Below are positions 6,739-63,164 of a stretch of DNA of 64,000 nt, piece by piece. The translations under genes were made by a program, and so were the position numbers. The notes under the pieces are model-generated. The model saw only the letters and a program-made list of their open reading frames with translations. It was not told the DNA's origin and searched no databases. Position 1 is the first letter of the stretch. Each line of letters opens with the position of its first letter. The DNA comes from a virus: positions 62,001 through 126,000 of IMG/VR virus record IMGVR_UViG_3300006737_000017. One strand, given 5' to 3'.

Positions 6739-8049
6739 ATGAATAAATTTAATGAAGACGGTAAAATGATTTACCACCACCCATGGAGGTTTCTCCAACA
6801 CTTTGTAGAAGATATGAAAGGTACAACTTCTACGTTAAAGAAAAAAGAAATAATCGAAAGGTACTCTGAAAATGAGTTTGTACTTAAATGTCTTAGATAT
6901 ACCCTCGACCCTTTCAAGATGTATTATGTTACTAGTAAAAATTGCAAGAAGCTTTCTAGTTACAAATCGCACGATGGCTATGAAGATGTATTTCAAATGC
7001 TTGATGATTTAGATAATAGAGTTATAACTGGTCACGAAGCAATATCTCAAGTAAATGGTTTCTGCGAAGGAACAGAAGACTTTGTTAAAGAATTAGTTTA
7101 TTCTATCATAGACAAGAATCTTCAAATCAGAGCTAATGCTAAATTGATAAACAAAGTAATTCCCGGATTGATTCCTACATTCGAGTTAGCTCTTGCTAAT
7201 TCCTATGATCCTAAACATGTAAACTTAGAAGAAGATACTTGGTTAACCTCTAGAAAATTAGATGGTGTTAGATGTATTGCTATCTGCGATTCTAATGGCG
7301 AAGTTAAATTACACTCTAGGGCCGGTAAGGAATTTGACACTTTAGCTAAAGTTAAAAGAGATTTGAAATTTGCAATGAGACCTAATACTGTATGGGACGG
7401 TGAGATTTGTATTTTAGATAAAGATGGTAACGAATCCTTCCAAGGTATTATGAAAGAGATACGTAGAAAAGATCACACAATACCCAATCCAACGTTCTTA
7501 GTTTTCGATTACTTAACTCTTAACGAATTTAATACCGGGACAAGCACTAGAACGTTATCAGAAAGAAATGATGTAGTTTTAGATATGGATCACGTACATT
7601 CTTTACAAATGGAAAAAGTTACTAGTATCGAACAGATTCAATCGCTAGCTGATGAAGCTGACGCTTTAGGTCACGAAGGTATTATGATTCGTAAAGATTG
7701 CGAATACAAAGGTAAGCGTTCTAATGATATTCTTAAAGTAAAGAAAATGCACGATGAAGAATACGAGATAGTCGGTTATGATTTTGCTGAACACAGAGTT
7801 ATCGATAATGGTAAAGAAGTAAAAGAAAGAATGCTATCTCAAATATACATTGAGCACAAAGGAAACAGAGTTGGAGTTGGATCTGGCTTCTCTAAAGAAC
7901 AAAGAAGATACTATACTAAAAACTTCGATGAGCTTACAGGAAAGACTGCTACTATACAGTACTTTGAAGAAACCTTAAACGAGGATGGACTATACTCTTT
8001 AAGATTCCCAGTTGTAAAGCACATATACAACAACGGTAGAAATTGTTAA
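6739..8049 (+). CDS. lig: ATP-dependent DNA ligase
   Basis: A 436-residue ligase that seals nicks in double-stranded DNA using ATP. The nucleotidyltransferase motifs are clear: motif I RKLDGVR with the adenylated lysine at about residue 173, motif III WDGEICIL, motif IV EGIMIRKD and motif V ILKVKKMH. An OB-fold region follows (VGVGSGFSKEQR...). Residues 1-140 form a helical N-terminal DNA-binding domain like that of T4 gp30, and the length is in the T4/T7 range. Expression is probably from P5 through the tRNA. The leader ends TTACTACT-ATG without a Shine-Dalgarno sequence. Its C-terminal Cys codon and stop form another TGTTAATAACTT copy. Confidence 0.93.
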   Translation: MNKFNEDGKMIYHHPWRFLQHFVEDMKGTTSTLKKKEIIERYSENEFVLKCLRYTLDPFKMYYVTSKNCKKLSSYKSHDGYEDVFQMLDDLDNRVITGHEAISQVNGFCEGTEDFVKELVYSIIDKNLQIRANAKLINKVIPGLIPTFELALANSYDPKHVNLEEDTWLTSRKLDGVRCIAICDSNGEVKLHSRAGKEFDTLAKVKRDLKFAMRPNTVWDGEICILDKDGNESFQGIMKEIRRKDHTIPNPTFLVFDYLTLNEFNTGTSTRTLSERNDVVLDMDHVHSLQMEKVTSIEQIQSLADEADALGHEGIMIRKDCEYKGKRSNDILKVKKMHDEEYEIVGYDFAEHRVIDNGKEVKERMLSQIYIEHKGNRVGVGSGFSKEQRRYYTKNFDELTGKTATIQYFEETLNEDGLYSLRFPVVKHIYNNGRNC

Positions 8050-9950: not shown

Positions 9951-10190
9951 ATGACAGTAGAATTATTAACATTTGCATTAGGTTTATTATTAGGTGGTAT
10001 ATTAATGTTCATCTATCTTTGGAGACAAGGTAAAGGTTTGAAAGAATTATTAGCTGATAAAATGATTGCTAATAAATTATTGAAAGATCAAATTACTGGT
10101 AGCGGTAGACCTAATAAATCTTGGAACAATAAGTCTAAGAAAAGATATTACAATGGCAAAAAGAAAAAAACAACAAGTACAAACTCTTAA
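9951..10190 (+). CDS. Small membrane-anchored protein
   Basis: A 79-residue protein with one N-terminal transmembrane helix (LLTFALGLLLGGILMFIYLW) followed by a very basic cytoplasmic tail ending KKRYYNGKKKKTTSTNS. The start has a strong AAAGGAG Shine-Dalgarno sequence, unlike genes directly behind the middle promoters. It overlaps the next gene by 38 nt. Single-pass topology with a basic tail suggests membrane tethering of DNA or RNA, but this is unproven. Confidence 0.6.
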   Translation: MTVELLTFALGLLLGGILMFIYLWRQGKGLKELLADKMIANKLLKDQITGSGRPNKSWNNKSKKRYYNGKKKKTTSTNS

Positions 10191-10494
10191 TACTGATATT
10201 CAGAAAACTGTTTTAGATATATTAAATTCTGTTGACAATGTAGATCCTAAAGATATTTCTAAAGTAACTGTTGAAAAGTTTGATAAGATACTTTCCTTAA
10301 TTTCAGCAAACATTAAAATGTCCGCTGGTAATAGAAACTTTGATCAGAATGAATTTAGAATAGATAAGTCTACAGTTTTTAATTATAAGATGAAATATTC
10401 AACAACTGGAAATATTAGTAAAGAGGATATACAATCGTTAAATTTGTTTTATCAGAAACATAAAAATTTAACAAAAATCTTACTTGCTATTTGA
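10153..10494 (+). CDS. Hypothetical protein
   Basis: A 113-residue, mainly helical, basic protein (MAKRKKQQVQTLNTDIQKTVLDILNSVDNVD...). No known motif. The first 38 nt overlap the previous gene in another frame, and the stop codon overlaps the GATATTTATA box preceding the tmRNA. A later in-frame start would remove the basic N terminus, so the true start is uncertain. Function unknown. Confidence 0.55.
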   Translation: MAKRKKQQVQTLNTDIQKTVLDILNSVDNVDPKDISKVTVEKFDKILSLISANIKMSAGNRNFDQNEFRIDKSTVFNYKMKYSTTGNISKEDIQSLNLFYQKHKNLTKILLAI

Positions 10495-10502
10495 TATTTA
10501 TA
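10493..10502 (+). promoter_or_regulatory. Late-type promoter box upstream of tmRNA
   Basis: GATATTTATA, the sequence repeated before most virion transcription units, lies just upstream of the tmRNA acceptor piece. No TTTGGATA box accompanies it. Confidence 0.55.
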
Positions 10503-10504
10503 AT

Positions 10505-10735
10505 TGAATCGCTATTACTTATATTAGCTGCATTTATGGACCCGGGTTCGATTCCCGGCATCTCCACTAAAAGATTTACACGATATGGGGATGACTGGCT
10601 TTGACAGAATGATAAGGGTATAAGGAAGATTCACTGCAACAACTGGCACACAAGTTGAAATGGCGATGGCTGCCTAATTAGGCCCCCTGACCCAACGGTT
10701 GAAGAAGCATACCGTCTAAGCTTCGGAGGTAAGAG
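10505..10735 (+). ncRNA. ssrA: tmRNA, circularly permuted (two-piece ssrA)
   Basis: The 3' half of the tRNA-like domain comes first: GGAC, T stem CCGGG/CCCGG with loop TTCGATT (10542-10558), acceptor 3' strand CATCTCC (10559-10565) and discriminator A10566. After about 20 nt the 5' half begins: acceptor strand GGGGATG (10587-10593), pairing over 7 bp with the upstream strand and keeping the G3.U70 alanine identity pair, then the conserved ACTGGCTTTGACAG. A helix-2 pairing joins CTTATATT (10518-10525) with GGTATAAG (10617-10624), and CATT (10531) with AATG (10608). A tag frame (10636-10677) and an H-type pseudoknot follow (ACGGT 10695/ACCGT 10711 and GAAGC 10704/GCTTC 10720). The RNA should rescue stalled ribosomes after cleavage into two pieces. 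The outer ends are approximate. Confidence 0.88.
10636..10677 (+). other. tmRNA proteolysis-tag reading frame
   Basis: From a likely GCA resume codon the frame reads ATTGTQVEMAMAA followed by TAA. The C-terminal AMAA matches the small hydrophobic (ALAA/VAA type) degradation signals of tmRNA tags. The stop codon sits in a GCC-TAATTA-GGC hairpin, as in helix 5 of standard tmRNAs. The resume position is inferred. Confidence 0.7.
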
Positions 10736-10761
10736 GATAATTAAATAAAAGGAGTAACAAT

Positions 10762-11145
10762 ATGACACCAGAAGAATACGGCAAAGTAGAAGAATTCATG
10801 GAAGGTTATATGTTAGATTTAACTTACGATATAGTAACTAAGAAGATTGCTTTATCTGAATTAGTTAATACTGACGAAGAAGTTATATTGAGTTACGACC
10901 CATTTGCAATAGGAGAAATAGATCAGGCTTGGTTATTACAAGACTTAATAGACTATTTTGTTACCACAGAAGAATATGAAAAATGTGCAAAACTATTGAA
11001 GATGAAAATACAAGTCGAAAAAGGTACGCTAGATTTATCTGATAGGATATATTTAACAGATGAAGATTTCTTGAATGAAGAACAAGATATGATTATTCAA
11101 TCCTTAATCGATGAATTATTAAAAAATAATTTTAACAAAAATTAG
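10762..11145 (+). CDS. Hypothetical acidic protein, paralogue of 9104-9364
   Basis: A 127-residue acidic helical protein. Its middle segment (DLIDYFVTTEEYEKCAKLLKMK) matches the UvrB/UvrC-like segment of the protein at 9104, and the rest is rich in Asp/Glu. It begins with a perfect AAAAGGAG Shine-Dalgarno sequence right after the tmRNA, suggesting co-transcription with it. No catalytic motif is visible; probably an adaptor-type protein. Confidence 0.6.
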   Translation: MTPEEYGKVEEFMEGYMLDLTYDIVTKKIALSELVNTDEEVILSYDPFAIGEIDQAWLLQDLIDYFVTTEEYEKCAKLLKMKIQVEKGTLDLSDRIYLTDEDFLNEEQDMIIQSLIDELLKNNFNKN

Positions 11146-61547: not shown

Positions 61548-63164
61548 ATGTCAAATCAAATTTCAAACTTACTAAATGAAAGCTCTAATCAGTTTCGTGC
61601 ACAAAGAAACGAGACTAAAGCTTTAGTTAGTAAATGGAACTCAACTGGTCTTCTTGAAGGTATCGATAAAGAATACGATAAGCATAATACTGCAATCCTT
61701 TTAGAAAACCAAGCGAAACAATTAATTTCCGAAGCAAATGCTACTTCTACTACTTCAGCTGAAGAATGGAACGGCGTTGCTCTTCCACTAGTTAGAAGAA
61801 TCTTCGGTGAATTAAGCGCTAAAGAATTTGTTAGCGTACAACCAATGAACTTACCATCAGGACTAGTATTCTGGTTAGATTTCAAATATGGATCTGATAT
61901 CCAGGGCGATGCTAATGGTAAGAAATTTACAGATGGAACTGATATCTTAGGTGATACTTCATCTTCATCTACACCAACAGGTGGTATTTACGGTAGAGGT
62001 AAAGCTGGATATACAGCTGGACAAGGTTCTGCTACTGCTGTAACTGCTGCTCACGCAACTGCATCTTGGGAAGATGTTGGATATGACGGTGCACTTTCTG
62101 CATCTGCTGCTGCAGGTACAATTATGAAAGTAACTTTAGCATCAACTAACTATCCAACAGATTTCGATTCTGATATGGTTAAGTCTGCTGCTATCTCTTG
62201 TTCAGATGGTGGTAAATTCGATGTAGCTGATAACTTATCTGCTTACAACTTTACTGAAGGAACTAACTCATACTTCTTTACTTCAAAAGATACTGCTGGT
62301 GGAGCTGCTCCAACTGCAATCGGAAAGATCTTCTTTACGAAAGCTCCAGCTGATAACTTATCAAGAGGTGACTTCGAAGCTAATGACGCTGAGCCAACAA
62401 CTAATGATTTAGGTATTCCTCAAATCGATGTTGCTTTAAGACAAGAAGCTTTAGTTGCTAAGACTAGAAAGTTAAAAGTTGTATGGACTCCAGAATTTGC
62501 TCAAGATTTGAATGCTTATCATTCAATTGATGCAGAGGCTGAGTTAACTTCAATGTTATCTGAATACATCTCAATGGAAATCGATATGGAAATCTTAGAG
62601 ATGGTTGATTCAGCTGCATTACATGAAGATACTTGGATTGCTGAATTAGGTAAAACAGCTACTGCTGGTTCTGATGTATTAGCTGATGCTGGAAATGCTG
62701 CTGCTTATACTCAAGCTACTTGGTTCCAAACGTTAGGTACTAAATTACAGAAAGTTTCTAATAAGATTCACGCTTCAACAATGAGAGGAGGAGCAAACTT
62801 CGTAGTATGTTCTCCAGATGTTGCAACAATCTTAGAATCTTTAACTGGGTTTGGGGCTGATACTGATGGTCTTAAAAATCAATTTGCTATGGGTGTTCAA
62901 AAGATCGGTGCTATCAATAACAGATACACTGTATACAAGAACCCTTACTGGCAAGATAACGTTTTATTAATGGGCTTTAGAGGATCTCAATTCCTTGAAA
63001 CTGGAGCAGTTTATGCACCGTATATTCCATTAATTATGACGCCATTGGTTTATGATCCTACTAACTTTACGCCAAGAAAAGGTGTAATGACTAGGTATGC
63101 TAAGAAAGTAGTAAGACCTGAATTCTACGGTAAGATCAACATCGGTCAATTGAATACTATATAA
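61548..63164 (+). CDS. gp23: Major capsid protein gp23
   Basis: A 538-residue HK97-fold major capsid protein of the T4 gp23 family. The pro-segment ends at QLISE|ANATS (Glu62|Ala63), matching gp21 cleavage and the T4 position (65|66). Then come SAEEWNGVALPLVRRIFGELSAKEFVSVQPMNLPSGLVFWLDFKYG (about 70-115), a Ser/Ala/Thr-rich insertion domain, the VALRQEALVAKTRKLKVVWTPEFAQDLNAYH segment and the C-terminal KVVRPEFYGKINI. Late Shine-Dalgarno ATAGGAG. Followed by a strong terminator. Confidence 0.97.
   Translation: MSNQISNLLNESSNQFRAQRNETKALVSKWNSTGLLEGIDKEYDKHNTAILLENQAKQLISEANATSTTSAEEWNGVALPLVRRIFGELSAKEFVSVQPMNLPSGLVFWLDFKYGSDIQGDANGKKFTDGTDILGDTSSSSTPTGGIYGRGKAGYTAGQGSATAVTAAHATASWEDVGYDGALSASAAAGTIMKVTLASTNYPTDFDSDMVKSAAISCSDGGKFDVADNLSAYNFTEGTNSYFFTSKDTAGGAAPTAIGKIFFTKAPADNLSRGDFEANDAEPTTNDLGIPQIDVALRQEALVAKTRKLKVVWTPEFAQDLNAYHSIDAEAELTSMLSEYISMEIDMEILEMVDSAALHEDTWIAELGKTATAGSDVLADAGNAAAYTQATWFQTLGTKLQKVSNKIHASTMRGGANFVVCSPDVATILESLTGFGADTDGLKNQFAMGVQKIGAINNRYTVYKNPYWQDNVLLMGFRGSQFLETGAVYAPYIPLIMTPLVYDPTNFTPRKGVMTRYAKKVVRPEFYGKINIGQLNTI

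Follow-up and report, generated by a model that had tools for sequence, protein, structure and literature searches.

Features of the two-piece gene

The window, the whole 64,000-nucleotide stretch of DNA analysed here, covers positions 62001 to 126000 of a virus record of 138,299 bases with T4-like portal, terminase, and major capsid proteins. On the plus strand of this window, ARAGORN places a permuted tmRNA with the tag GTQVEMAMAA, flanked by two open reading frames without a family match. The outer ends of the call (10474 and 10768) are generous, and the true mature ends may differ from them. The features of the locus, in order, are the following.

6739-8049 (+): ATP-dependent DNA ligase gene, ending about 2.4 kb ahead of the tmRNA call
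10153-10494 (+): upstream open reading frame, 113 aa, no family match
10474-10768 (+): extent of the permuted tmRNA gene in the ARAGORN call
10517-10677 (+): match to Rfam RF04321, 66.9 bits
10518-10523 (+): P2b 3' strand CUUAUA in the acceptor piece, partner 10619-10624; 96.1% paired, compensatory changes in 4 of 6 pairs
10531-10535 (+): P2a 3' strand CAUUU in the acceptor piece, partner 10607-10611; 93.4% paired, compensatory changes in 4 of 5 pairs
10542-10558 (+): T arm CCGGG-UUCGAUU-CCCGG with canonical T loop; 100% paired, with compensatory changes
10559-10566 (+): acceptor 3' strand CAUCUCC (10559-10565) and discriminator A73 (10566); 100% paired
10567-10586 (+): spacer, expected to be excised; 15-21 nt in most relatives (ARAGORN bounds)
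10587-10593 (+): acceptor 5' strand GGGGAUG (G1-G7), pairing with the acceptor 3' strand; the coding piece begins here
10594-10607 (+): D-loop-like motif ACUGGCUUUGACAG, from the RF04321 match and motif scores
10607-10611 (+): P2a 5' strand GAAUG, pairing in the 43-relative alignment
10619-10624 (+): P2b 5' strand UAUAAG, pairing in the 43-relative alignment
10645-10677 (+): tag frame GTQVEMAMAA-stop (ARAGORN), resume codon GGC preceded by ACAACU
10672-10683 (+): P5 stop-codon hairpin GCCU-AAUU-AGGC; 99.4% paired
10695-10724 (+): H-type pseudoknot; S1 98.1% paired, S2 covaries
10695-10699 and 10711-10715 (+): pseudoknot stem S1, ACGGU with ACCGU; 98.1% paired
10704-10708 and 10720-10724 (+): pseudoknot stem S2, GAAGC with GCUUC; covaries in relatives
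10762-11145 (+): downstream open reading frame, 127 aa, no family match

The gene order is permuted, with the T arm and acceptor 3' half (10542-10566) placed ahead of the 5' half (10587-10593) and a spacer between them. The two halves form a 7-bp acceptor stem that includes the G3.U70 pair (G10589 with U10563). No CCA end is encoded; the acceptor strand is followed by A-C-U-A. Within the coding piece, the D-loop motif ACTGGCTTTGACAG begins at 10594 and the path from G1 to the tag is compact, at 55-64 nt in the short-tag family. One pseudoknot was found, after the stop, and none in the stretch leading from the 5' end to the tag. The first-pass annotation had marked out the T arm, acceptor strands, D-loop motif, stop hairpin, and pseudoknot, and all of them lie where it placed them. 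Its tag needs one correction: the leading residues ATT fall upstream of the resume point in the tag given by ARAGORN.

Detection and conservation in relatives

The Rfam model tmRNA_permuted (RF04321), which merges the known permuted lineages, matches the gene above its 47-bit cut-off with an E value of 1e-10 in 64 kb. As a yardstick, the same model gives at most 38.8 bits for the one-piece tmRNAs of 395 Bacteroidota genomes (with the sole permuted hit set aside), 47.9 bits for the standard tmRNAs of 114 Gammaproteobacteria, and 41.9 bits among 79 cyanobacteria; alphaproteobacterial permuted genes score 96-166 bits and a betaproteobacterial-type gene 141. When the window was shuffled 150 times with dinucleotides preserved (9.6 Mb), ARAGORN made no tmRNA call of any kind. 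The single-sequence folding energy of the gene gives no signal (z = -0.16), so support for the gene comes from comparison. Among 50,697 phage records, BLASTN with the gene as query recovered the T-arm half alone.

Relatives were gathered in two ways: through the DNA ligase gene, and through a pattern of acceptor 3' end, short spacer, and 5' half. The pattern matched 70 IMG/VR contigs, 57 of which have a permuted ARAGORN call and 54 of which carry homologues of window proteins nearby, in the stretch covered. The nearest relatives by ligase (L089, L090, L091, and L147) have the tmRNA about 2.4 kb past the ligase gene, as in the window. No tmRNA call was made in L094, despite a ligase that is 72% identical.

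To examine the fold, we aligned 43 distinct genes and scored the 32 pairs of the proposed two-piece structure. Standard pairs occupy 97.9% of pair cells, compared with 41-52% in slid controls. Compensatory changes occur in 14 of the 32 pairs, with 130 cells changed on both sides, a level reached by none of 500 shuffles. The helices that join both pieces, P2a and P2b, hold much of this covariation. All 43 genes keep the 7-bp acceptor pairing. Invariant among them are G3.U70, the A that follows the acceptor strand, and the GGC codon of the tag, while acceptor position 5 varies (C-G, U-A, G-C). Pseudoknot stem S2 is likewise variable, occurring as GAAGC/GCUUC, GGGAC/GUCCC, GAGGU/ACCUC, GAGAC/GUCUC, and others. 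The ARAGORN call, the RF04321 match, the empty shuffles, and the fold across 43 relatives bear out the phage-encoded permuted tmRNA proposed in the first-pass annotation, which had itself named the Rfam tmRNA models as a check. The permuted tmRNA is a real, conserved gene of marine T4-like phages.

The pattern also matched 12 genome contigs. Five of these are one-piece Bacteroidota tmRNAs by ARAGORN, another (L225) looks by sequence like a further one-piece Bacteroidota tmRNA with a chance upstream CTCCAC, and five others look coincidental. One contig of a Pelagibacter metagenome-assembled genome (L224/L234 in G006) carries a phage-type permuted tmRNA. This contig is probably mis-binned, since it duplicates viral contig L177 and G006 contains a separate alpha-type permuted gene of its own (L233).

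Several branches differ in spacer or tag. In three contigs (L162:3480-3844, L203:4512-4957, and L210:4366-4924), a complete tRNA-Ala (UGC) gene lies inside an 88-90 nt spacer between the tmRNA halves, so that processing of the tRNA would free both tmRNA pieces too. Six contigs (L002, L006, L177, L203, L207, and L210) have tags of a constant 37 aa ending in AMAA or AMAV, such as GTQIKSVKAGIFASLAAIRLLATETVATEESVYAMAA; ARAGORN gives a partial or wrong tag in all six. Both branches would be forms absent from the literature searched. A separate group of permuted phage tmRNAs (L102-L105), with the tag ANDNFALAA and a canonical T loop, groups away from the window family.

Lineage of the phage gene and its host

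Permuted tmRNAs have been described from three main bacterial clades and from mitochondria (PMC11915505). A 2022 study described two-piece tmRNAs in mostly marine phages and assigned their lineages to alphaproteobacteria, cyanobacteria, and gammaproteobacteria; they account for 53 of its 133 phage tmRNA structures, so a permuted tmRNA in a phage is not new as such (PMC9004378). The methylophage Melnitz and pelagimyophage ssrA genes are likewise permuted and carried by marine T4-like phages, and have been proposed to serve ribosome upkeep or host-protein tagging. Their authors assign them to an alphaproteobacterial lineage and link them to a glutamine riboswitch (PMC9004378), whereas the window sequence is of Bacteroidia type and an Rfam search of the window found no riboswitch. 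We found no description of a Bacteroidota-type permuted tmRNA in the openly readable main texts searched, and an earlier notice is possible.

The gene shares its order and its acceptor and T-arm pairing with the alphaproteobacterial, betaproteobacterial, and cyanobacterial genes behind RF04321 (PMC11915505), and the first-pass annotation had named these three groups as the known holders of permuted genes. Its sequence is of another kind, which that annotation did not foresee. In the alpha- and betaproteobacterial permuted genes sampled, the T loop is altered (GGCGGUA or GGCAGUA) and the D loop is (C/U)AGGNUCGAC; their model scores are higher and, in the examples examined, the distance from G1 to the tag is visibly longer. 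In contrast, the window has the canonical T loop UUCGAUU and the D loop CUGGCUUUGAC and lacks the loops typical of those lineages. The resemblance is instead to the one-piece tmRNA of Bacteroidia (RF00023), seen in the GGGGNNGACTGGTTTTGACAG-like 5' end, the ACTGGC/AATGGC-like resume site, and tags that start with G and end in ALAA or AMAA, like that of the window. The Bacteroidia genes differ in being unpermuted, about 366-400 nt long, and in having a long segment from the 5' end to the tag.

We scored the D-loop motif and the resume site with position-specific matrices built from Bacteroidia, other Bacteroidota, alphaproteobacterial permuted, gammaproteobacterial, cyanobacterial, and Gastranaerophilales-like genes. 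On the sum of the two motif scores, Bacteroidia is the best group for 42 of 46 distinct phage genes and other Bacteroidota for the remaining 4. The gathering pattern itself requires TGGNTTTGAC, which biases the D-loop comparison for most relatives and leaves the resume-site comparison unaffected. By the resume site alone, Bacteroidia is the best group for 36 of the 46 and other Bacteroidota for 8; tags are miscalled in the last two. For the window, the D-loop motif scores +17 bits as Bacteroidia and -19 as alphaproteobacterial permuted, and the resume site scores low for Bacteroidia, at +2, with the next group at -7. Across the main phage family, the D-loop motif scores -10 to -31 bits against the alpha class.

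A free tree of 72 alignable columns places the phage permuted rows and the Bacteroidia rows in one group (99/96). On the same 72 columns, which include no cyanobacterial permuted genes, a clade uniting the phage genes with the alpha- and betaproteobacterial permuted genes is not rejected by the AU test (p = 0.49). An apparent rejection of a single origin (p = 0.001) was traced to an acceptor block mis-anchored in the CCTCCACCTCCAC rows, and re-anchoring gave the value above. The most likely ancestor of the gene is a one-piece tmRNA of Bacteroidia type, ahead of the alpha- and betaproteobacterial permuted lineages. This suggests an independent permutation within phages, which is the better reading and not a proven one, because the motifs, the T loop, and the tree favor Bacteroidia but the AU test does not reject a single origin.

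The strongest alternative is that phages took up a permuted tmRNA of alphaproteobacterial, betaproteobacterial, or cyanobacterial origin and that its sequence later became Bacteroidia-like, in which case the host could lie outside Bacteroidota. Besides the AU result, it draws on the closest single phage match, recorded from Microcystis, on the fact that phages do carry alpha-type permuted ssrA (PMC9004378), and on the makeup of the comparison set: no cyanobacterial permuted gene was recovered over the RF04321 cut-off in 79 genomes or by pattern in 244. The T and D loops, the negative alpha-class D-loop scores, and the short G1-to-tag distance speak against such an ancestry, and we consider it possible but rather unlikely.

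Descent from a Bacteroidia-type gene can be set beside the bacterial genomes. The standard tmRNA model matches in all 61 Bacteroidota genomes searched with it, in 60 of them over the cut-off, and among 395 Bacteroidota genomes a single permuted hit exceeds the RF04321 cut-off, in a prophage. The earlier statement that Bacteroidota tmRNA genes are one-piece thus holds for these genomes. The prophage, integrated in genome G240 (L235, L313, and L314), carries its permuted tmRNA beside tRNA-Met and tRNA-Ile, with the tag GKVIQMNNAPVRLAA, which resembles tags in some viral contigs. Integrase, DNA polymerase, RIIA, primase, and DnaB helicase genes form its context on a 1.6-Mb contig, host metabolic genes adjoin it, and G240 has a one-piece tmRNA elsewhere.

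Cultured phages of Bacteroidota provide further comparisons. In Maribacter phage Panino (L317, PP540027.1), the tmRNA annotated in GenBank is permuted by ARAGORN; the record says SsrA only, and the tmRNA passages of the Panino paper do not mention permutation (PMC11590407). Like the window gene, it combines a permuted order with a Bacteroidota-like D loop and resume region, and its cultured host belongs to Bacteroidota; it differs in being carried by a podovirus with another genome and in its 16-aa tag, GKVMNVSFAPTVRQFA. A permuted tmRNA in a Bacteroidota phage, which the first-pass annotation had thought would be new, was therefore already present in culture. The tmRNAs of the marine Bacteroidota phages Cellulophaga phage Calle (Calle_2) and phi38:1 (L315 and L316) have a similar 5' end, but are one-piece, with an unusual predicted 22-aa tag ending in GV rather than AA.

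Each of the portal, terminase, and major capsid proteins has its nearest records in Microcystis phage Mel-JY01 (50-57%), which is the single best match, and Flavobacterium phage immuto (49-55%), a kinship of about 50% protein identity; Rhodothermus phage RM378 ranks further down. ARAGORN found no tmRNA in the immuto record, which was scanned except for about 600 bases. Judged from these structural-protein records, the host is probably, though not certainly, a marine Bacteroidota bacterium. A gene of this kind in the Bacteroidota prophage and in Maribacter phage Panino points the same way. The phage had been called Bacteroidota-like partly on its promoters. The presence of Flavobacterium phages among its nearest cultured relatives agrees with that view, but the promoter argument fails, as the Bacteroidota -33/-7 motif is not enriched in the window (4 found versus 3.6 expected). 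The late promoter of T4 type, TATAAATA, is overrepresented (30 versus 15), and no promoter-like excess surrounds the tmRNA gene.

Proposed function and meaning

The gene order, the conserved two-piece fold, and the coding capacity are observed, and we consider it very likely that this is a working permuted ssrA gene of Bacteroidia-type origin in a T4-like phage, most likely one of a marine Bacteroidota bacterium. Processing, charging, rescue, and tagging are inferred from established tmRNA biology. One precursor would be transcribed from the permuted gene. The spacer would be cut out by host RNase P, acting on the 5' side of G10587, and by a tRNA 3'-processing nuclease acting after A10566, and CCA would be added after A73. 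Held by the P2 helices and the 7-bp acceptor stem, the two pieces would then stay together. Alanyl-tRNA synthetase is predicted to charge the RNA via G3.U70, and host SmpB would carry it to ribosomes stalled on broken mRNA, where translation would switch to GTQVEMAMAA and the product would be routed to a host protease. The likeliest benefit would be that ribosomes are freed while host mRNA is degraded.

The RNA could instead act as a decoy, its tRNA-like domain binding SmpB or the synthetase and blocking the host tmRNA with little or no tagging, thereby switching off the host rescue step. Mycobacteriophage DS6A offers a precedent in a tmRNA consisting of the tRNA-like domain only, which has been likened to an inhibitor of the endogenous tmRNA (PMC4131195; PMC11915505). 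Further, SmpB was not found in the 138-kb phage record, and the phage RNA would thus compete for the SmpB of the host. A decoy would need none of the tag frame ending in AA, the stop hairpin, or the pseudoknot, yet these are conserved with compensatory changes in the 43 relatives, which makes this role improbable. A passenger or decaying copy without function would fit the lack of a tmRNA in some phage relatives such as L094, but the strong covariation, the unchanged location next to the same genes in close relatives, and the presence in dozens of divergent contigs leave it very little likelihood.

We see roughly even chances that the gene represents a further independent permutation of the Bacteroidia one-piece gene, housed by phages and prophages and not by the core genome of the bacteria, so that the split form would be essentially a viral property. 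In this phage-borne family, the split form may thus have originated separately, in phages. If so, it would add an origin of gene permutation, and phages would be a place where such rearrangements arise or persist. With its annotation corrected, Maribacter phage Panino becomes a cultured model for permuted tmRNA, and a two-piece phage ssrA entering a cell with a one-piece ssrA would offer a simple host system for testing the purpose of viral tmRNA.
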